NCBI GenBank assembly: GCA_900318885.1
Contig: ONMN01000021.1
Coordinates: 1 to 60,659 of the forward strand
Length of the DNA: 60,659 bases
Direction: 5' to 3'
From: an uncultured Prevotellaceae bacterium
GTDB taxonomy: Bacteria > Bacteroidota > Bacteroidia > Bacteroidales > Bacteroidaceae
The notes below the pieces were generated by a model. That model was not told where the DNA came from. It saw only the letters and a list, made by a program, of their open reading frames with translations, and ran no database searches. Each line of letters starts with the position of its first letter. Position 1 is the stretch's first letter. This document shows positions 26,789 to 37,438 of the stretch, in pieces. Made by a program: the position numbers and the translations under genes.

Positions 26789-26981
26789 TGCTGTATATAT
26801 AAAAAAAAGTGACCCGCCAGCAAATCTACGGGATGCCGACGGGTTCTGTTATCGCTTGATTCGGACTGTCTTATCCGAGAATCTTCTTTATTTCGGGTGC
26901 AAATATAATGCTTTTTTGTTAATTATGCCACTTTTTTAGCAAATTTCTTTATAAAGCTGCTCTCATTTACCGATTTTTTTC
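26789..26981. other. AT-rich intergenic region between divergent units
   Basis: It holds a possible minus-strand -7 box TATATTTG (26900-26907) for the Abi gene and small hairpins (ACCCGCC..GACGGGT; TCGGA..TCCGA) near 26811-26873. No gene is visible. Confidence 0.5.
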
Positions 26982-26989
26982 TATCTTTG
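26982..26989 (+). promoter_or_regulatory. -7 box TATCTTTG of the structured RNA / CXXX peptide operon
   Basis: TATCTTTG fits the Bacteroidetes -7 consensus and lies just before the first hairpin of the RNA. A TTTG box at the usual distance is absent. Transcription would start near 26996. Confidence 0.65.
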
Positions 26990-27249
26990 CATCGACTTGG
27001 GGGAGAAATCCCGAGTTGCAGATGCAGTAGCTTTTATTTCGCACTTACCAAAGACGCCTGAGAAACTTCTTTTGGAATAGTTCGATTTAATAGCGAGGGA
27101 AGCCGGAAAGGCAACCCAGTACTCTTGCATTAAGCTATGCACACGCCTCCTGGCGTGGAGCATTCTTAAAGAGTACAGGGGTTCCATTTCTCAGGCGCGC
27201 CCCTTAGGTAAGTGCATAAGAGTGGCCACGCCATTCTTTGTGCCTTATG
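26990..27249 (+). ncRNA. Highly structured RNA upstream of the CXXX-repeat peptide operon
   Basis: The region folds on paper into nested helices. A 5' hairpin closes GCATC/GATGC with an inner GACTTGGG/CCCGAGTT. The main domain is closed by GCACTTACC (27041-27049) with GGTAAGTGC (27207-27215), then GCCTGAGAAA (27056-27065) with TTTCTCAGGC (27187-27196). Inside are GTACTCTT (27119-27126) with AAGAGTAC (27169-27176), capped by CACGCC/GGCGTG, and a GGGAAGCC/GGCAACCC hairpin. A 3' hairpin closes CATAAG/CTTATG. There is no open frame across it. The roughly 175-nt main domain is near the size of 6S RNA, but I do not recognise a known family. It could be a long 5' leader or a separate small RNA. Confidence 0.6.
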
Positions 27250-27305
27250 GATAGTGCATCCATTGATGGATTTAATTAGTACTAATTTATAAAAACAAAG
27301 AAACT

Positions 27306-28010
27306 ATGGACGCAAAGAAGAAAAAGAATGAAGAACTTCAAACCAGACGTGAATTCTTCAAGAATGCAGCAAAGCGGGTTCTTCCTATTGTAGGAGCTAT
27401 TGCATTGGCGAATCCTATAATACGCGCGGCTAGTCCAGAGCCAACACCTACAAATTGTAATAGAGGAACTTGCTCTTTTGGTTGCTCCATTACATGCTCC
27501 GGTGGTTGTGATGGAAGTTGTAGTGGATCATGCCTAACATCTTGTATGTATGAATGTTATCAGACGTGTGGGCAGACGTGTCAAGGTAATTGTACAGGTT
27601 CTTGTCAAGGTAGTTGCCAATTTAGTTGTGGAGGAGGTTGCGGTAATGGATGTTCTGGTTCATGTTCCGGTACATGCGCAGGATCGGCAGATGCTGTTCA
27701 CAGCTGTTCTAACTGTAATACCGTGTGCACATCTTCCTGTAAAGATGGCTGCAAAGAGTCATGTAACGATGGCTGTAAAGAGTCATGTAAAGGCGGCTGC
27801 AAAGGAGATTGTTATGAGGTATGCAAAGATTCTTGCTCAAAAAGTTGCAAAACTTATTGTGAGGGTGGATGCAAAGATACTTGCAAGAGTGGATGTGAAG
27901 GAACTTGCAAGGACGGATGTTCTGGAAGTTGTAAAGGAAGATGCACAGGTAACTGTAGAGGTACATGTTGGGGGTTCATGTTCTTTAACCCGATGTTCAA
28001 ACCTGCATAA
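27306..28010 (+). CDS. CXXX-repeat peptide precursor with twin-arginine leader
   Basis: The 234-residue protein starts with a Tat-type signal: charged n-region, T13-R14-R15-E16-F17-F18-K19, then a hydrophobic stretch to about Ala42. From Cys51 onward nearly every fourth residue is cysteine, 42 in total. The first block (to about residue 120) has neutral linkers (SGS, QGN, GGG). A short break, AGSADAVHSCSNC, is followed by a second block with charged linkers (KDG, KES, KGD, EGG). The tail is CWGFMFFNPMFKPA. It is the substrate-type gene of the radical-SAM operon behind it, which starts 3 bp after the stop. No structural fold with such spacing is expected without modification, so maturation before Tat export is inferred. 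Confidence 0.85.
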   Translation: MDAKKKKNEELQTRREFFKNAAKRVLPIVGAIALANPIIRAASPEPTPTNCNRGTCSFGCSITCSGGCDGSCSGSCLTSCMYECYQTCGQTCQGNCTGSCQGSCQFSCGGGCGNGCSGSCSGTCAGSADAVHSCSNCNTVCTSSCKDGCKESCNDGCKESCKGGCKGDCYEVCKDSCSKSCKTYCEGGCKDTCKSGCEGTCKDGCSGSCKGRCTGNCRGTCWGFMFFNPMFKPA

Positions 28011-28013
28011 TAA

Positions 28014-29234
28014 ATGGAACTGTTTAAAATACAGAACGAACAATGGCAGTCTGGCGTTTCAAAGAGTATCACGTTTATCGTCACAAAAGATTGCCAGTTA
28101 GCCTGCAAGTATTGCTATTTGGTTGGCAAGAACTCCAAGGAACGTATGCCTTGGAGTATTGCCAAGCAAGCCGTTGACTATGTGCTTGATCACGAAAATG
28201 ATTTCAACGAGGAATCAGTAATCTGGGACTTCATCGGCGGTGAACCATTCTTGGAGATTGACCTTATTGACAAGATATGCGACTATATCAAGATAGAGCT
28301 GTTCCGTCGGGATCATCATTGGTTCAATTCCTATCGCTTCTCGTTTTCCACAAATGGTATCAACTATCACGAGGAGAAGGTACAGCGGTTCATTGAAAAG
28401 AATCGTTACCATCTAAGCATTGGCATCACTATTGATGGTACTCGGCAGAAACACGACCTTAACCGTGTTTATAAAAAAACGGGACGTGGTTCGTATGACG
28501 ATGTAGTCAGGAACATTCCGTTGTGGCAGTCTCAGTTTCCAGGAAATGGCACTAAGGTGACAATAAGCAGTGCTGACCTTCCTTATATCAAAGAAAGTGT
28601 GTTGCATTTGTTCTCCCTTGGTATTCCGGAAGTGAACATCAACTGTGTTTTCGAGGATGTCTGGAAAGATGGTGATGACCTTATCTTTCAGAATCAGCTG
28701 ATGGAACTTGCAGATGCTATCATTGACAATGGATTATACGAAAACAATGTCTGCTCGTTCTTTCAAGAGCATTTGGGCAAGCCTCTCGACAGGAAACTGC
28801 AAAACCAGAACTGGTGTGGTGCAGGCAAGATGTTAGCCGTTGATGCTGCAGGCATTTTTTATCCATGTACACGCTTTGCTCAGTATTCTTTACGCAACAA
28901 GAAAGCTTGGATTATTGGCAATGTTAATGACGGCATTGACAAGAATAAATTGCGTGGATTCCTAACGTTAGACCGTTGCACACAGAGCACGCAGGAATGT
29001 ATCGACTGCGAAGTGGCTGAAGGTTGTGCTTGGTGTCAGGGAGAAAACTACGACACTGCCGACACTTACACCGCATTCCAACGTTCAATAGCTATCTGCA
29101 AGATGCACAAAGCACGTGTAAGAGCCAACAACTACTATTGGAATAAACTCTTCCGCAAACTGGAATTGGAAGGGATAGAGAGAGAACGCGCCAAAGAACA
29201 TATGAAACAACCCCAAATAAAGGATATATGCTGA
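28014..29234 (+). CDS. Radical-SAM/SPASM peptide maturase of the CXXX-repeat system
   Basis: The 406-residue protein binds a 4Fe-4S cluster through C27-x3-C31-x2-C34 (CQLACKYC) and has the GGEP SAM-binding motif (FIGGEPF). The C-terminal SPASM-type region, from about residue 266 (NWCGAGKMLAVD, FYPCTRF, then CTQSTQECIDCEVAEGCAWC and AICKMH), would hold two auxiliary clusters. Radical-SAM/SPASM enzymes of this class make thioether or carbon-carbon links in ribosomal peptides. Family naming in protein databases includes a CXXX repeat peptide maturase, which this resembles. It overlaps the next gene by 7 bp. Confidence 0.88.
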   Translation: MELFKIQNEQWQSGVSKSITFIVTKDCQLACKYCYLVGKNSKERMPWSIAKQAVDYVLDHENDFNEESVIWDFIGGEPFLEIDLIDKICDYIKIELFRRDHHWFNSYRFSFSTNGINYHEEKVQRFIEKNRYHLSIGITIDGTRQKHDLNRVYKKTGRGSYDDVVRNIPLWQSQFPGNGTKVTISSADLPYIKESVLHLFSLGIPEVNINCVFEDVWKDGDDLIFQNQLMELADAIIDNGLYENNVCSFFQEHLGKPLDRKLQNQNWCGAGKMLAVDAAGIFYPCTRFAQYSLRNKKAWIIGNVNDGIDKNKLRGFLTLDRCTQSTQECIDCEVAEGCAWCQGENYDTADTYTAFQRSIAICKMHKARVRANNYYWNKLFRKLELEGIERERAKEHMKQPQIKDIC

Positions 29235-30166
29235 AATACCTTGTGATATTGCTCGATGATACGAGCACATCTTTTTGCCACTACGACAATCCCAAGTCTG
29301 AGTCTCAATTGATGTCCATTGAGACACTGAAGAGTGGTATTCACTTTGGTATGATGGAAAACCTGATGATTCAGTTTGTATATCCTGTGGACGCATTGCC
29401 GCTGGATTATCTGCAAGCTATAGAGACGATAGACCATGGCGTTATCGCTCCATCAGGAAGTCCCGTAAATGCTGACGTAGTTGTGTTTAACGATTGGGAT
29501 ACATTCCTAAAGTTTGACTATTCGGGAGTTGGAACTTTTGTACTTAGGACAGACTCGAAGCAACTTTATGAGAATCAAAAGCAACTCAAATCGATTCTCT
29601 ATCAGGTGACACGACTCAACATCGTGTTAACGGATATAGAAACCATGAATGACAAGGACTTTGAAAAATACGATAAGTTTCTGGATGAGTTGAGAGCTAT
29701 AATGAAGAGGCTTTACCTGAAAGGTTATCAGACTCAATGCAATTTGATAACTGACCGAATCGTCCTTGATGCGATGAATAATTGCAATGCAGGAACGGAA
29801 AGCATTACCTTAGCACCAAATGGAAAGTTCTATATCTGTCCTGGCTTCTATTATGATGGCTTGGATGCTGTTGGCAGTCTTGAAGATGGTCTTGACATAA
29901 AGAATCTGCAGCTTTATAGGCTTGACCATGCACCGCTTTGCCGAATATGCGATGCTTATCACTGCAAGCGTTGTATATGGCTGAATCAAAAGACAACGAT
30001 GGAAGTGAATACGCCAAGCCATGAGCAATGCGTTGTTGCGCATTTGGAGCGTAATCAAGCCCGTTTGCTCTTGAAAGAATTGCAAGACAGAGGTATTTAC
30101 GACAAGAAACAAGAAATAAAGGAAATCTCTTATCTCGACCCATTCGATATAAGAGAGCAATGGTAA
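29228..30166 (+). CDS. SPASM-domain partner protein without the radical-SAM CxxxCxxC motif
   Basis: The 312-residue protein has a radical-SAM-barrel-like size, but its N-terminus (MLKYLVILLDDTSTSFCHYDNP) lacks the CxxxCxxC cluster motif. The C-terminal third retains a SPASM cysteine set: NCNAGTESITLAPNGKFYICPGF, then CRICDAYHCKRCIW and HEQCVV. It probably works with the active maturase, as substrate receptor or auxiliary-cluster electron donor. It starts inside the end of the maturase gene and stops 7 bp before the second peptide gene. Database families use the name CXXX repeat peptide maturase for such proteins too, so its exact role is open. Confidence 0.75.
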   Translation: MLKYLVILLDDTSTSFCHYDNPKSESQLMSIETLKSGIHFGMMENLMIQFVYPVDALPLDYLQAIETIDHGVIAPSGSPVNADVVVFNDWDTFLKFDYSGVGTFVLRTDSKQLYENQKQLKSILYQVTRLNIVLTDIETMNDKDFEKYDKFLDELRAIMKRLYLKGYQTQCNLITDRIVLDAMNNCNAGTESITLAPNGKFYICPGFYYDGLDAVGSLEDGLDIKNLQLYRLDHAPLCRICDAYHCKRCIWLNQKTTMEVNTPSHEQCVVAHLERNQARLLLKELQDRGIYDKKQEIKEISYLDPFDIREQW

Positions 30167-30173
30167 TAAAGCT

Positions 30174-30539
30174 ATGGAAGAAAAGATAACAAGACGAGAA
30201 TTGTTCCGAAGAGTGGCAAGGATGCTTCCAATCATTGCGTTGGCAAGTGTTCCTATTATTCCTACTATAGCAGAGCAAGTCAATGATTGTAATGGGACAT
30301 GTAAAGCATCTTGCTATTATTCTTGTAGGGTAACAAGCAAAGGAATGTGTGATGCATGTACATCGGCTTGTCGCATTGGTTGCCAACATTGTTGTAAAAC
30401 AAGTTGTGGGGCTGCTTGTGATGGCACTTGTAGAGGCTCAGCTACAGCTGTTACAGACACAACACCTAAAACCAAACGTGATAGTTGTAAACATGAATGT
30501 AATAAGCATAAAAACGATACAATTAAAAGCAACAAATAA
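30174..30539 (+). CDS. Second Cys-rich precursor peptide with twin-arginine leader
   Basis: The 121-residue protein repeats the plan of the first precursor at smaller size: T6-R7-R8-E9-L10-F11-R12, a hydrophobic stretch (MLPIIALASVPIIPTIA), then 15 cysteines from Cys39. Spacing is mostly CxxxC (CNGTCKASCYYSC) but irregular in places (CRVTSKGMCDAC, QHCCKTSC). The C-terminal 35 residues are rich in Lys, Asp, Asn and Thr with a final CKHEC. It is encoded between the SPASM partner and the small modification protein, so both peptides are likely substrates of the same enzymes. Confidence 0.8.
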   Translation: MEEKITRRELFRRVARMLPIIALASVPIIPTIAEQVNDCNGTCKASCYYSCRVTSKGMCDACTSACRIGCQHCCKTSCGAACDGTCRGSATAVTDTTPKTKRDSCKHECNKHKNDTIKSNK

Positions 30540-30542
30540 AAT

Positions 30543-30818
30543 ATGGAAAGAAAATTAGTAGGTCAAGTGACCGTAGAAGAAAAGAATGAGATTCAGACCC
30601 TGTTTGAACGTCGCAATGGTCTGAGTGAGTTGGCCAAAATCCTTTCGCCTGACAATACAGAATTGTATGAGAAGCTTGTAAAGGACATGGGAGAAACTGC
30701 CACGAAGTTCCAGCAATGGTGGGATACCAAAGCACGTAGTTACAATTGGGAGTCGGCAGAAAACGGCAACTGGGAAATCAACTTTGAGACTTGTGAAATC
30801 TTCTTGGTAAAGCCATGA
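30543..30818 (+). CDS. Small CXXX-peptide modification-system protein
   Basis: The 91-residue soluble protein ([20 protein letters not shown], ...[20 protein letters not shown], ...[14 protein letters not shown], ending EIFLVKP) has no metal or catalytic motif. Its size and position match the family named CXXX repeat peptide modification system protein, possibly a peptide chaperone. The start is 3 bp after the second precursor, and its stop overlaps the tatA start (ATGA), which indicates coupled translation. Confidence 0.7.
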
Positions 30819-31051
30819 TGTCAGCGCAACTCTTATTTATCGGTACAACCGAATTGATGCTTATTGCTGGCATTGCTCTTCTGCTCTTTGGTGGAAAGAA
30901 ACTACCGGAGATGATGCGAGGCATGGGACGAGGCATAAGCGAGTTCAAGAAGGGAGCAAAGGAAGTCACTGACCCCATCAATGAGGTTAAGGACGAGATT
31001 CTTTCCGACGTAGACGAACAAGGCCAGACGGATGAAGCCGTCAAACAATGA
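30815..31051 (+). CDS. tatA: TatA/E-type twin-arginine translocase subunit
   Basis: The 78-residue protein has the TatA plan: a short N-terminal transmembrane helix (about residues 8-25), the hinge [14 protein letters not shown], an amphipathic helix and an acidic tail. It would polymerise around TatC to pass folded substrates across the inner membrane. Being embedded in the peptide operon, its likely cargo is the two twin-arginine Cys-rich peptides. It overlaps tatC by 20 bp. Confidence 0.92.
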
Positions 31052-31817
31052 CGAGAAACTAACATTCGGCGGGCACTTGGAAGTGTTTCGCCGTCTGTTT
31101 ATGCGTATCATTGCGGTAGCAGGTGCTATCGCAATGGTTGTCTTTTGCTTCAAGGATACTACATGGGAGGTGCTGCTTGCTCCAAGCGAGTGGGACTTCT
31201 GCACTTATCGCTGGATAGAATCAGCTTTTCAGTTCTTTGATATGGACTTCCGCTTTGAGGAGTTCCATGTAAATCTAATCGCTACCGACTTGTCAAGCCA
31301 GTTTATGATGCATATCACAACGGCAGTCTATCTTGGCATGCTGGGTGCATCTCCATATATATTATATGAGTTGTTCCGCTTCATATCGCCTGCACTCTAC
31401 GAGAACGAGCGGCGGTATTCGGTACAGATAGCAGGCATCATCTATGCACTGTTCATCCTTGGCGTACTGATGTCATACTTCGTGCTGTTCCCCATCTCGT
31501 TCCGCTTCCTCGGCACCTACAGCGTGTCTGCAAAGGTGGTAAGCAATATCACGCTTGATTCGTATATCAGCACTTTCGTTTCGTTAACATTGGTCATGGG
31601 TGTCGTATTCCAATTACCCGTCATCGCTTTCTTCCTTGGTAAGATCGGAGTTATTACATCTGCAATGCTCGCCAAATACCGTAAGCATTCCTTTGTCGTC
31701 ATCATGCTAGTAGCTGCTATTATTACTCCACCAGATTTAATGACATTGATACTAGTCACCATTCCGCTCTACTTGCTTTATGAAGTAAGCATTAGGGTGG
31801 TTAGGTGGATAGAATAA
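31032..31817 (+). CDS. tatC: TatC twin-arginine translocase receptor, variant N-terminal motif
   Basis: The 261-residue, six-helix membrane protein has TatC landmarks: HLEVFRR at the N-terminus, [10 protein letters not shown] (the acidic residue of the cytoplasmic loop), FQLPVIAF, and [21 protein letters not shown]. TatC recognises the twin-arginine signal. In the usual HLxELR motif a Glu stands where this protein has Val (HLEVFR), so signal recognition may differ. It is longer than usual between helices 1 and 2 (a segment of about 45 residues with [11 protein letters not shown]). No tatB-like gene is visible. It is the last gene of the operon. Confidence 0.92.
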
Positions 31818-33316: not shown

Positions 33317-34696
33317 TTATTGGGCGGGATTGAGATAGTGCTTTCTGTTGATTTTACCGTTGAAGGTGCGTTCGACTTTGTCGACCTGACTGTAGAGCAT
33401 GGGGATTTTGTATGCCTCCAGCTTCGTTTTCAGATGCAGGGCGAGGGCCTTGCGGTCCAGCGACTTGCCGTCCTTCATGACCACGAGGAGCTTCAGGGCC
33501 TTGCCGGAAATGATGTGGTCGACGGGTATGCACACGCAGTCCTCCACGTCGGGGAATGCCAGTGCGGCATCCTCCACCTCGGTCGGTGCGACCTTGAAGC
33601 CGCCGACATTGATGACGTCGTCCTCACGGCCCGTGAGATGCAGCATGCCATCGGCGTCGAGCATTCCCATGTCCGACGTGTAAACCACGTCTAACGTTGA
33701 ACGTTGAACGTTGAACATTGAACGTTGACCATTGACCATTGAACATTGACCATTGACCATTGAACATTGATTGTCTCCGACATATCCCGTCATCAGGGTA
33801 CGGCCCTTACAGGCGATGAGGCCCTTGTCGGTAATGATAATCTGTGAATGTTTCATCGGACGCCCCAGACACCCTGCCACGCACTTACCGTCGTTATAGT
33901 TGTAGGTGCTGATGATGCCGGTCTCCGTGGAGGCGTAGGTGTTGTAAAGGCGCGTCGTGGGCAGCAAGCGACACAGCGCCTCCATGTCTGCCTGCGATAT
34001 GGCTGCGGCACCGGTTTCGATGAAGTCCATTTTGTCGGCCAGTGCTGCCAGTTGTGCGGCACCAAACTGCAGCAGCATGCGGATGCTGGCGGGCACGAGG
34101 AATGTGGCCATCTTCGGTGCGGGATATTGGAAGGCGTCGAAGAATCGGTTTAAGTCCTTCAGGCCGTCGACGATGATGGCGGTAGCCCCCAGCATCATGA
34201 GCGGATAGAGCTTCGACAGGCTTCCGATGTGGTTCAGAGGTCCGTTGACGACGAATGCCAGGTCGTGGGAGAATCCCTGTCCGTCGATGAGGTTTTCGGC
34301 ATCGGCAATGATGGCGTCGTGGCTGATGATGACGCCCTTCGACCGTCCTGTCGTCCCCGTGGTGTAGAGGATGTCCGCCGAACCCTTCGGGACGGTATGG
34401 GGGCACAGCTCATGGGCAATCTTTTGGAACGACGCCTCCGGCAGGTCCTTTTCCAATGGTGCTACGACACATCCTGCGACGTGATATGCAAAATAGTCCA
34501 CGAGGTAGTCAACCGTCGGCAGGGCTCGCAGACAGACAATCTGTCCCTCCCGACAGCCGGCCTCCTGCAATGCCGCCGCCTTCCGGCTGATTCGCTCCTG
34601 CAACATGCTGTAGGTGCAGTGCTCTCCGTCGCAGACGATTGCCGTCTTGTCAGGGTATAGCGTGGCGTTGCGTTCGATATAGTGTTCGATGGTCAT
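33317..34696 (-). CDS. AMP-dependent acyl/aryl ligase of the polyene cluster, with heptamer insertion
   Basis: The protein (about 459 residues from ATG 34696) is an ANL-superfamily adenylate-forming enzyme: ILYTTGTTGRSKGVIISH (P-loop), YNTYASTETG, the hinge GREDDVINVGGFKVAPTEVED and the C-terminal lysine in ERTFNGKINRK. It would activate an aryl or fatty acid and load it on an ACP, the role of ApeH-like ligases. An earlier TTG start is possible, but it lies in repeat DNA. Residues about 323-350 (QCSMVNGQCSMVNGQRSMFN) are encoded by a heptamer array, just before the YTSDMG motif. Confidence 0.85.
   Translation of the reverse strand: MTIEHYIERNATLYPDKTAIVCDGEHCTYSMLQERISRKAAALQEAGCREGQIVCLRALPTVDYLVDYFAYHVAGCVVAPLEKDLPEASFQKIAHELCPHTVPKGSADILYTTGTTGRSKGVIISHDAIIADAENLIDGQGFSHDLAFVVNGPLNHIGSLSKLYPLMMLGATAIIVDGLKDLNRFFDAFQYPAPKMATFLVPASIRMLLQFGAAQLAALADKMDFIETGAAAISQADMEALCRLLPTTRLYNTYASTETGIISTYNYNDGKCVAGCLGRPMKHSQIIITDKGLIACKGRTLMTGYVGDNQCSMVNGQCSMVNGQRSMFNVQRSTLDVVYTSDMGMLDADGMLHLTGREDDVINVGGFKVAPTEVEDAALAFPDVEDCVCIPVDHIISGKALKLLVVMKDGKSLDRKALALHLKTKLEAYKIPMLYSQVDKVERTFNGKINRKHYLNPAQ
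33693..33773 (-). repeat. Heptamer array inside the ligase gene
   Basis: Eleven or so 7-bp units of AACGTTG, AACATTG and ACCATTG type, translated in frame as SMVNGQ/SMFNVQ repeats. Confidence 0.9.
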
Positions 34697-34702
34697 AGTT
34701 TT

Positions 34703-34734
34703 ATGTTCAATGTTCAACGTTCAATGTTCAACGT
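34703..34734 (-). repeat. Heptamer array at the ACP-ligase junction
   Basis: Units of AACGTTG/AACATTG encode the last residues (LNIER) and the stop of the ACP gene. Confidence 0.85.
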
Positions 34735-34944
34735 TTTCTCTTCCACCATTGCCACGATGCTGTCAAGCGTTTTCAGGTTCTTCGGCGTAGCATCCGTCGC
34801 CTCCAACTTGATGCCGTATTCGTCGGAAAGCAGCATCAATATGGTTGTTACGCCCAATGAGTCGAGTTCACTGAACAGGAAGTCGGAGTCGAAATCCACC
34901 AAGGGTAGCGCTTCCTCTAATAATTGTCTAATCCTTTCTCGCAT
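34714..34944 (-). CDS. Acyl carrier protein
   Basis: The 76-residue acidic protein has the ACP helix-turn with the phosphopantetheine serine in SELDSLGVTTILMLLSDEYGI. It is one of three ACPs in the operon. It overlaps the exporter gene by 17 bp, and its C-terminal LNIER and stop codon come from a heptamer array. Confidence 0.88.
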   Translation of the reverse strand: MRERIRQLLEEALPLVDFDSDFLFSELDSLGVTTILMLLSDEYGIKLEATDATPKNLKTLDSIVAMVEEKTLNIER

Positions 34945-37438
34945 ATTCTAAATTATTTGTTACGTTTTCGGTGGCGTGACGGGCCACGATGGCACGCTCG
35001 TCGTCGGCGATCACTGCCACATAGCGTCGCTGCGGATTGAGCAGTGCCACCAACAGTGCCGTTTCGCCCCAACCGTCGTCGGTGATGGTTTCGCCGTCCG
35101 ACAGTTGACTTAGTTCAGCCTCGTGACTGCGCCAGTAACGCAGCCGACGGTTGACGGCCATTGATATTTCCACCCCACGGTAGCGGTAGCGGTCGGAAAC
35201 TTTCTGGTAAGCACTATTTCGATTTCTAAATAGTAATCCACAAAGGGTTATCGGCTGCCTGCGTTCGTTGCCATTGCGGTCGTACACCAACCAGCGGAAG
35301 CAATATGTTGGTAATAGCCATGCCATAAAGACGACTGTAAACATTCCCACGATGGTCACCTCAGCCAACGAGCGCAGGGCGGGATGGCGTGCTACAATCA
35401 GCGATCCAATGCCTATAAACATGATTAGCGCTGAAATGATGATGCTTTGTTTGTATGAGTTCAGCATCTTGCGTCGGTAGGCATATTCGTACTGGCAACC
35501 CTCCGTCATAAAGATGGTGTAGTCGTCGCCCTGTCCGAAGATGAATGTTGCCAGGATGATGTTGACCACGTTAAACTGTATGCCCAGCAGCGACATGATG
35601 CCCAATATCCACACCCAGCTGACGGCCATGGGCAGGAACGATATGAGGGCCAGTTCTATGCTGCCCATCGAGAACCACAGGAAGAAGAACACGATGGCTC
35701 CGCAGGCCCAGCCGATGTAGTTGAAATTGTCCGTCAGACTGCTTACAATGGCGGAGGTGAGGGCAGATGAACGTTGAACGTTGAACATTGAACGTTGAAC
35801 GTCTGATGTTTGATGGCTGAGGGACATGAGTTTGTAGAAGTCGTCGAACGAATCGTCGGCAAAGCCCATCGCTGCTGCTTTCTGCCGCAGTTGCTGACAC
35901 AGTGCGGCACCCTTCGTGGTGCGCCATTCGTTCCACTGGTTGACCATTGACCATTGACCATTGACCATTGACCATTGACCATTGACCATTGAGGGCTGTT
36001 CCAGCAGTTTCATGTCCTGGCGCTGTTCGTCTGTCATATAGTTGATGTTGCGCAAATCAGCATCGAAAGAAGTCTGAAAACTGAAATATCCCAACACAAC
36101 GGTCAGAGCAACAACCGTCCCGACAATCCACCGTTTGTTCTCCAGCTGCACATCGCCGAGTCGTTCGAGAAGTCTGATGGCTGATGTCTGATGTCTGATG
36201 GCTGATGGTTCTCTGACCTGAAGGTCTGAGTGTGGCACGCAATGATGGCTGAGGTCTGCCCCCTTCTGCACCATGTGGGGTAACCATACGAGTACGAAGA
36301 TGATGGTGCCGACGAGCAGGAATGCGCTGAAAAGCCCCAAGTCGCGCAATGCCACCGACTGTAGCGGCACCAGCGCCAGGAACGCCCCGACGGTGGTGAC
36401 GTTGCCCACCACGAGCGGCATCCTGATCTCTTTGAGTGCCGTCTGCACGTCCGTCGTATGTGACAGATGTGCGATGAGGTGCAGCGGATAGTTGACAGCT
36501 ATACCCAAGATGACGGAGGATATGCCTATGACGATGATAGAGACATCGTTGTGAACCAGTGTGAGACAGCCCATTGCAAAAAGCCATCCCCATGCGATAC
36601 TGACTGCGATGAGCATCAGGTTACGTACGTTACGGAATACCAACCACAGCAGAAGTAGAATGAGAATCACTGCAAAGGTTATTGAAATGATGCTGTCTTT
36701 CTTTATCTGTTGAGCATTGCCGACAGCAATGACAGGACCTCCTGTCAGGCGTACCGAAACATCAGGGAATTGAAGGCTGACGCTGTCGCATATCTGCTGA
36801 ACCATTGACACCAACGTGGCGTTATGCTCCGTCTCGCTGGCTCCGAAAGGTGAATCAATCAGAAGCACACTGCTATTAGCCAGATTGGTTGGTTTCTGAC
36901 GAGCCAAAACAGACGCGAACAAATTCAGCGGGTCGTGCTGAATTTGCATAGCCGCCATGCCGCCACTGGGTAGCATCAGCATTTGTTTGTCGTTTTCCAG
37001 TTGGCGGTCCATAAAGTCAGGCGTTTCTGTCATGCTGTCTATACGGGCATAGTCATCCGCTGTCAGCAGGTACGGCATCTGCGCATATATAGTGTTCATA
37101 GCCTCTTGTACGACTTCAGGATCGTCACCCTGCAAAATGGCTAATGGCTTTTGGCTTTTCTCTCGGAGAGAGTGTGGCGTTGCGAGGGCTGTTAGCTGTT
37201 CCGCCATCTCTGTAAACAAGTCTACAGCAGGCTGACAGTCATTGTCGGGAGATTGAAATATGACATAGATACGACGTGCACTCGACGTATTCTGATATTC
37301 CATAAAGGCTTCTTGCTGCTCATTCTCAAGTGGCAGGAAGTCGGAAATGTCTTCCTTATACGACTGTCCAGCCGTCAACAGCACCAATATGGCCGTTAAC
37401 ACCGCGAATATGATCCACTTTTTATTGTTCATGTTCAA
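34928..37438 (-). CDS. MMPL/RND-type lipid exporter with several repeat insertions
   Basis: The 836-residue inner-membrane protein has the RND/MMPL plan: one N-terminal helix, a large periplasmic loop, a bundle with DVSIIVIGISSVILGIAVNYPLHL, a second loop, and a second bundle with FIFGQGDDYTIFMTEG. Aryl-polyene loci encode such exporters (ApeM-like) for moving the finished lipid to the outer membrane. Non-native segments are visible: PHSLREKS (palindromic element, 37156), CVPHSDLQVREP plus SAIRHQTSAIR (36172-36240), MVNGQWSMVNGQWSMVN (35939) and DVQRSMFNVQRS (35769). All are in frame and in loops. Confidence 0.87.
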   Translation of the reverse strand: MNMNNKKWIIFAVLTAILVLLTAGQSYKEDISDFLPLENEQQEAFMEYQNTSSARRIYVIFQSPDNDCQPAVDLFTEMAEQLTALATPHSLREKSQKPLAILQGDDPEVVQEAMNTIYAQMPYLLTADDYARIDSMTETPDFMDRQLENDKQMLMLPSGGMAAMQIQHDPLNLFASVLARQKPTNLANSSVLLIDSPFGASETEHNATLVSMVQQICDSVSLQFPDVSVRLTGGPVIAVGNAQQIKKDSIISITFAVILILLLLWLVFRNVRNLMLIAVSIAWGWLFAMGCLTLVHNDVSIIVIGISSVILGIAVNYPLHLIAHLSHTTDVQTALKEIRMPLVVGNVTTVGAFLALVPLQSVALRDLGLFSAFLLVGTIIFVLVWLPHMVQKGADLSHHCVPHSDLQVREPSAIRHQTSAIRLLERLGDVQLENKRWIVGTVVALTVVLGYFSFQTSFDADLRNINYMTDEQRQDMKLLEQPSMVNGQWSMVNGQWSMVNQWNEWRTTKGAALCQQLRQKAAAMGFADDSFDDFYKLMSLSHQTSDVQRSMFNVQRSSALTSAIVSSLTDNFNYIGWACGAIVFFFLWFSMGSIELALISFLPMAVSWVWILGIMSLLGIQFNVVNIILATFIFGQGDDYTIFMTEGCQYEYAYRRKMLNSYKQSIIISALIMFIGIGSLIVARHPALRSLAEVTIVGMFTVVFMAWLLPTYCFRWLVYDRNGNERRQPITLCGLLFRNRNSAYQKVSDRYRYRGVEISMAVNRRLRYWRSHEAELSQLSDGETITDDGWGETALLVALLNPQRRYVAVIADDERAIVARHATENVTNNLEYARKD
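35769..35822 (-). repeat. Heptamer arrays inside the exporter gene
   Basis: AACGTTG/AACATTG units at 35769-35802, followed by CTGATGT/TTGATGG-type units to 35822. Translated in frame. Confidence 0.85.
35939..35992 (-). repeat. Heptamer array ACCATTG inside the exporter gene
   Basis: About seven near-perfect ACCATTG units, translated as repeated MVNGQWS. Because 21 bp equals three heptamers, changes of three units keep the frame. Confidence 0.9.
36172..36240 (-). repeat. CTGATGK heptamers next to a palindromic element, inside the exporter gene
   Basis: CTGATGT/CTGATGG units (36172-36207) directly abut the palindromic element (36208-36240: CTC-T-GACCT-GA-AGGTC-T-GAG plus GTGTGGC). Together they encode CVPHSDLQVREPSAIR. 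Confidence 0.85.
37156..37183 (-). repeat. Palindromic element inside the exporter gene
   Basis: TCTCTC-G-GAGAGA joined to GAGTGTGGCGTTGC; read by the host gene as ATPHSLREKS. Confidence 0.85.

Follow-up and report, generated by a model that had tools for sequence, protein, structure and literature searches.

Modified peptides of the ribosomally synthesized and post-translationally modified peptide (RiPP) kind usually leave the cell as small products via ABC transporters, and for proteins that a radical enzyme has modified, export through the twin-arginine translocation (Tat) pathway would be out of the ordinary. Here, we describe a seven-gene operon from an uncultured Prevotellaceae bacterium, lying at positions 27306–31817 of a 60,659-nucleotide stretch of DNA (contig ONMN01000021.1; the whole stretch is called the window below), in which two cysteine-rich precursors with twin-arginine (RR) leaders and CXXX repeats are encoded with a radical S-adenosylmethionine (SAM) enzyme carrying a SPASM domain, a second SPASM protein, a small protein of family TIGR04116, TatA and TatC. 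We consider it reasonably probable that this operon makes, modifies and exports CXXX-repeat proteins, a single leader being both a RiPP-type leader and a Tat signal. If true, the conserved pairing of a maturation complex and a Tat pore of its own would be a natural export route for already cross-linked proteins, would open to testing the handling and proofreading of covalently stapled substrates by Tat, and would suggest that Bacteroidales have envelope proteins of a new kind.

Described relatives of the system

The NCBIfam CXXX-repeat set (TIGR04114, TIGR04115, TIGR04116, TIGR04117 and TIGR04119) matches the window operon with all five models, four of the five non-Tat proteins scoring over cut-off and the second precursor, P2, below it; the model descriptions make no mention of Tat. 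Haft and Basu 2011 is said to be a likely source of these models, and no paper was found under the names TIGR04115, TIGR04116 or TIGR04119 in the literature searched, which was mostly open access and did not cover that article. The same literature gave no system joining Tat with RiPPs or radical SAM among the matches listed, and no experiment on a CXXX-repeat/Tat system. Term look-up found no CXXX-repeat system in the available parts of PMC10352776 (RiPP mining in Bacteroidales), PMC12710340 (RiPP recognition element, RRE) and PMC5682303 (radical SAM review), and 'twin-arginine' does not occur in those parts of the first and the last, the two in which it was looked up. Tat export of cross-linked proteins appears as speculation only, for lanthipeptide display, in the sections available of PMC5686179. 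The families are, then, known by computation; we could not find a description of the conserved Tat pair, the SPASM partner lacking the catalytic motif, the gene fusions or the dual leader discussed below.

By sequence, the closest solved relative of the window radical SAM enzyme is 5wgg (E 8.9e-23), which, with 5why, we take to be CteB, a SCIFF maturase; CteB is also the closest solved relative of the second SPASM protein by fold. The window operon differs in that its enzyme is paired with a partner lacking the CX3CX2C motif, and in that the SCIFF model TIGR03974 (108.2 bits) does not reach its cut-off of 425. The second-best family match of the enzyme is to the PapB model NF047865 (191.5 bits, under the cut-off of 340). 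PapB, the maturase of the PapA ranthipeptides, carries out short-range cysteine thioether chemistry, joining Cys to Asp or Glu (PMC9413430, in the part available), whereas the residues between the cysteines of window-type repeats are mostly small.

For the translocase, the nearest parallel is TatAdCd of Bacillus subtilis, a second TatAC that is linked to its substrate PhoD and specific for it (PMC3827258, in the part available). The window genome likewise has a second TatAC, and the operon pair stands beside RR precursors; its substrate specificity is putative, and it differs from TatAdCd in belonging to a modification operon that recurs across Bacteroidales families. In signal-peptide proofreading, as described in the partial source available, NapD binds the leader of NapA, a role for which the TIGR04116 protein is considered below; no relationship between the TIGR04116 model and NapD was found.

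Conservation of the operon

Relatives of the operon were taken from the best 80 of 290 loci in one scan of genome contigs (the named loci), to which the window locus and 11 loci from same-order genomes were added to give an annotated set of 92; several of the 11 come from genomes already represented among the named loci. Six named loci without a full tatAC end at or near a contig end (L018, L021, L037, L050, L054 and L064), leaving 74 uncut loci, among them L038, in which 819 bases remain past the TIGR04116 gene.

The co-occurrence of precursors, maturase and tatAC to which the initial annotation had pointed recurs in most relatives, tatA and tatC lying downstream of the TIGR04116 gene in 60 of the 74 uncut named loci. 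Both tat genes are present in 60 of all 80 named loci (tatA alone in 1, neither in 19) and in 69 of the 92 annotated loci, of which 22 have neither gene and 1 has only tatA. Of 29 loci sampled at family level, a sample that overlaps with the named loci (L281 and L073, for instance), 24 have both genes, L279 has tatA alone and the remaining 4 have neither; local tatAC accompanies 9 of the 12 carriers in the order sample. The TIGR04116-to-tatA gap has a median of 5 bases and a maximum of 301, and tatC touches or overlaps tatA in nearly all loci, the single 1564-base gap, in L046, having a precursor within it. Because the same set and order of genes recur in most of the relatives examined, the gene set is not a chance association. 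Among open reading frames (ORFs) of at least 90 amino acids (aa), to which the search was restricted, no further neighbour is conserved, the sole cluster present in at least six loci occurring in seven.

The operon is patchily distributed. TIGR04115 passes its cut-off in 12 of the 393 genomes of the same order and in 5 of 345 genomes of a phylum sample, and TIGR04116 does so in 28 of 251 same-family genomes (window genome included in these counts); none of the 16 other same-genus genomes in the family-level search matches. This patchiness suggests horizontal transfer. Many carriers come, by their record titles, from animal gut and rumen samples. In the outside-class loci L253 and L254, neither a TIGR04116 gene nor a precursor was found at the thresholds used.

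Two or three CXXX operons coexist in some genomes (L084/L204/L205, L020/L173, L081/L212 and L263/L264), Xylanibacter caecicola having three. Nearly every copy in such genomes has its own tatAC, some being cut by contig ends or by the limits of the fetched stretch, and from these several tatAC-bearing operons per genome it follows that the system multiplies within genomes. Two records titled Clostridium or Clostridia (L048 and L079) have an operon TatC nested among those of Bacteroidota, and their titles are probably wrong.

The operon in the window

The seven ORFs, all on the + strand and overlapping or nearly touching, are of the kinds and at the positions that the initial annotation had given (Table 1), and six of them score over the cut-off of curated models, P2 being the exception. 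The radical SAM and second SPASM genes overlap by 7 bases, the TIGR04116 gene and tatA by 4, and tatA and tatC by 20. The window genome, with an estimated completeness of 85.7% by the tool used, has one TIGR04115 gene over cut-off.

Table 1. Genes of the CXXX-repeat operon in the window
Gene product	Position	Strand	Size	Sequence features and model scores
Precursor 1 (P1)	27306..28010	+	234 aa, 42 Cys	RR leader (TRREFFKNAAKRVLP), then CXXX repeats; over cut-off for TIGR04117 (75.8 bits) and TIGR04114 (36.3 bits)
Radical SAM/SPASM maturase	28014..29234	+	406 aa	TIGR04115 644.5 bits (cut-off 350); CX3CX2C at C27/C31/C34; SPASM-region cysteines C268 to C362
Second SPASM protein	29228..30166	+	312 aa	TIGR04119 231.3 bits (cut-off 150)
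Precursor 2 (P2)	30174..30539	+	121 aa, 15 Cys	RR leader (TRRELFRRVARMLP), CXXX repeats; TIGR04117 35.5 bits (cut-off 50)
TIGR04116 protein	30543..30818	+	91 aa	TIGR04116 93.1 bits (cut-off 50)
TatA	30815..31051	+	78 aa	TIGR01411 64.1 bits (cut-off 53.9); PF02416 56.3 bits
TatC	31032..31817	+	261 aa	TIGR00945 152.6 bits (cut-off 132.7); PF00902 197.5 bits

Lineage of the Tat pair

The operon pair is not the only Tat system of the window genome, the case that would have spoken against the dedicated pore proposed in the initial annotation: a second tatAC lies on contig C57 (TatC at G000:C57:14442-15107), followed by a gene for a membrane Fe-S protein that we take to be NapH-like. The window operon TatC is 48% identical to this housekeeping TatC and 87% identical to the operon TatC of L058. 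Among cultured carriers, Xylanibacter rarus (L016) likewise has both systems. As a separate observation, the NapH-like protein beside the housekeeping tatAC of the window genome (L004, 4874-6373, − strand) carries an in-frame SRDTRDTRDS repeat.

A genome-wide TatC search covered 50 of the 80 named loci, including all 14 uncut loci without local tatAC, with operon and other copies told apart by hand-matching of coordinates. TatC is present in all 50 genomes. All 14 loci lacking the local pair have a TatC elsewhere in the genome, and in 13 of these genomes there is exactly one, with no CXXX gene within the few kb fetched around it; the L020 genome has another TatC and a second CXXX operon with tatAC, in which the contig ends before the radical SAM gene. 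Across the order, TatC occurs in 327 of 393 genomes, and genomes with two copies, counted from the table, make up 6 of 12 carriers versus 14 of 381 others (p 6e-6).

A maximum likelihood tree built from 65 TatC of operons, 53 others and 2 that are unassigned, the housekeeping copies being of our choosing, requires three changes of the operon label, as against a mean of 39.7 on shuffling, with none of 500 shuffles as low. Fifty-four of the 65 operon TatC, the window copy included, form one clade (98/92) that spans families and stands apart from housekeeping TatC. The other 11, with the 2 unassigned copies, form a weak group (87/69) within a 100/100 clade that also holds four housekeeping TatC; from the two groups, the Tat pair would perhaps have joined the operon twice, or been exchanged once. 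Pairwise distances of operon TatC and radical SAM enzyme are correlated (r 0.32, n 64, 0 of 2000 permutations as high). For housekeeping TatC (n 19) the value is 0.19, with 131 of 2000 permutations as high, compared with 0.31 (47 of 2000) for the operon copies of the same 19 genomes, a modest contrast.

The precursor leader

Of the 155 CXXX ORFs located close to a maturase, a count that includes duplicate loci, 140 carry near their N terminus an RR motif flanked by hydrophobic residues, 4 carry another RR and 11 carry none; some of the 11 look like other frames or contig ends. The common leader reads SRREFFKKAAKxxLP, and in 139 distinct leaders Phe stands at +3 in 95% and at +4 in 96%, and Pro at +13 in 90%. 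Pro at +12 or +13 is found in 136 of the 139, versus none of 24 control RR leaders, which were taken from other proteins in the fetched loci and several of which are alike. An earlier control (0 of 20) had treated Pro as non-hydrophobic, a possible bias that was removed in the 24; the Fisher p of 1e-22 refers to that earlier control and, the sequences being related, overstates their independence.

The leader Pro is kept in 29 of 30 precursors from loci without local tatAC and, by eye, in both outside-class precursors, so the constraint follows the maturase and not the local TatC. Because the pattern persists where the local pair is missing, we suggest that the single leader is probably both a Tat signal and a maturase recognition site.

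The repeat core and its destination

In the precursors, 2327 of 2688 neighbouring cysteine pairs are spaced 4 apart. Within the 2327 CXXXC units, the last X is Ser, Thr or Gly in 72% and the middle X is Gly in 35%, and Asp and Glu together account for 5–8% at each of the three positions. Precursors reach 416 aa (L024) and 74 cysteines (L030).

A strict lipobox pattern is matched by 40 of 140 precursors, in several of which acidic residues follow (by eye); L075 and L078, lipoprotein-like by eye, were counted as negative. Loci in which all precursors have a lipobox are commoner without local tatAC (10 of 16 versus 13 of 63, p 0.002), in a comparison that left out 3 duplicates and the 7 loci truncated at contig ends. 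Long non-repeat stretches lie beside the cysteine arrays in a few precursors (L016, L024, L078 and L083); no Pfam family is over cut-off in them, and that of L016 has a sub-threshold match to Lcl_C. Lcl_C is likewise matched below threshold by separate lipoprotein-like ORFs that lie upstream in L058 and L039; in L058 BACON is also over cut-off, and in L039 there is a marginal match to fn3. Given the lipoboxes and the long non-repeat stretches, the CXXX arrays look, from their sequences, like parts of envelope proteins and not like small bacteriocins. The 'peptides' of the initial annotation are, as it said, cysteine-rich and led by an RR motif, but the word fits poorly with the frequently large size of these proteins, with the lipobox predicted in some of them and with the extended non-repeat segments of a few.

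The maturation proteins

CX3CX2C is present in 89 of 89 radical SAM enzymes and in none of 87 second SPASM proteins, all 87 of which keep a seven-cysteine SPASM-like pattern. The AlphaFold2 (AF2) model of the window's second SPASM protein (pLDDT 92.5) aligns with 5wgg and 5why in Foldseek over most of its length (TMq 0.69–0.71, E 1e-9 to 4e-9). From this model we propose that it is a radical SAM protein that has lost the catalytic cluster and kept the auxiliary cluster sites, and acts as a pseudo-radical-SAM partner. In L106 the radical SAM enzyme and the second SPASM protein are fused in one 721-aa frame, and in L251 and L252 the second SPASM protein shares a frame with TIGR04116; because of these fusions, the three proteins probably work together.

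The TIGR04116 protein is strongly conserved, with a mean column identity of 75% (72 sequences) compared with 54% (74) for the SPASM partner. Its AF2 model (pLDDT 93.5) is beta-alpha-alpha-beta-beta, with two long helices and a small sheet (E2-8 H11-33 H39-67 E76-80 E85-90), and gave no strong or informative fold match in the PDB; the RRE fold is a winged helix. By analogy with NapD and NapA, the TIGR04116 protein is proposed to be a leader-binding or hand-off adaptor.

A proposed pathway and the alternatives

By sequence, a precursor consists of a Tat-type leader and, after it, arrays of cysteines four positions apart that are separated by Ser, Thr and Gly. In the pathway that we propose, the leader would be held in the cytoplasm by the radical SAM/SPASM enzyme, its SPASM partner without the catalytic motif and the TIGR04116 protein, and the enzyme would modify the cysteines, the likeliest products being short-range thioether links to the small residues between them. 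Radical cross-linking is our best guess, drawn from the family membership of the maturase, and thioethers are proposed because the nearest characterized relatives, PapB and CteB, form them. The resulting stapled array would be one that Sec could not thread; the leader would then be handed to the adjacent TatAC and the folded product would cross the inner membrane, another Tat of the genome exporting it where local tatAC is missing. From the cleavage-site patterns, the product would either be freed in the periplasm or stay attached by a lipoprotein anchor, perhaps on the cell surface. In a more elaborate version, which we offer tentatively and which may well prove wrong, these are radical-SAM-stapled envelope proteins whose dual leader is held by TIGR04116 until stapling, with a co-evolved translocase exporting a rigid folded rod and some products being surface lipoproteins that carry globular domains outward.

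Several observations weigh against a modification and export operon of this kind. Local tatAC is absent from 14 of the 74 uncut named loci, 4 of the 29 family-level loci and all 4 outside-class loci, and is therefore not strictly required. No TatC other than the operon copy was found in 9 of the 50 genomes searched (G400, G405, G408, G409, G416, G418, G420, G426 and G428) and in 3 of the 12 order-sample carriers (G039, G378 and G383); many carrier genomes are metagenome assemblies, where TatC absence is weak evidence, and if they are complete the operon TatC there is not exclusive to the precursors and presumably serves other substrates too. TatC presence does not separate carriers from other same-order genomes (12 of 12 versus 315 of 381, p 0.23), the TatC–radical SAM distance correlation is only moderate, and the leader constraint, being kept without local tatAC, does not show pairing with the operon TatC. 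Moreover, the Asp and Glu acceptors to which PapB links Cys are rare in the repeats, so a PapB-like reaction would need another acceptor. Of the dedicated tatAC in the initial annotation, what survives is a pair that is mostly of its own lineage and carried with the operon; with some loci lacking it and some genomes in which no other TatC was found, 'committed' is too strong a word.

The gaps in tatAC linkage, the genomes with an operon TatC only, the other TatC in genomes whose locus lacks the pair, and the second operon group adjoining four housekeeping TatC all speak for a different explanation, namely that tatAC is a second general-purpose Tat translocase travelling with the operon and that any Tat would accept the precursors as ordinary substrates. 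We think this unlikely in view of the tight, conserved linkage (a median gap of a few bases), the 54-member clade common to several families and the excess of two-TatC genomes among carriers. We give a comparably low probability to the idea that the CXXX arrays are not covalently cross-linked at all, being loaded with metal or Fe-S clusters in the cytoplasm, and that the radical SAM enzyme makes some other modification. Long in-register cysteine arrays and the rarity of Asp and Glu acceptors would suit such a metal-binding protein, and most E. coli Tat substrates bind redox cofactors (PMC3712460, in the part available); against this, the maturase is nearest in sequence to the thioether formers PapB and CteB, and among neighbours of the size searched no conserved cluster that could load metal was found. 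A conventional RiPP product, secreted as a small peptide with an antimicrobial or signalling role, seems very improbable, for although the maturase scores against many RiPP maturase families, no exporter, protease or immunity gene of the searched size is conserved beside it, and precursors of the lengths, cysteine counts and lipobox frequency given above fit such a product poorly.

Other features near the operon

Just upstream of P1, at 26985-27262 (+ strand), lies a structured RNA (minimum free energy of 26975-27305 −125 kcal/mol, z −7.35), with both-side changes in 16 of 82 predicted pairs among five sequences and no Rfam family above gathering score. Relatives of it precede four close CXXX operons and are also found near unrelated genes. 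Matches occur in 16 of 151 same-family genomes including its own, in 10 of the others over about 240 bases or more, and it is a dispersed RNA family to which we assign no role. Downstream of the operon, an AMP-binding-like gene at 33317-34717 and a large membrane-transporter-like gene at 34928-37438, both on the − strand and both named by eye, contain in-frame short repeats of the MVNGQ... and FNVQRS... types, which look as if they were frame-preserving insertions of small repeat elements.

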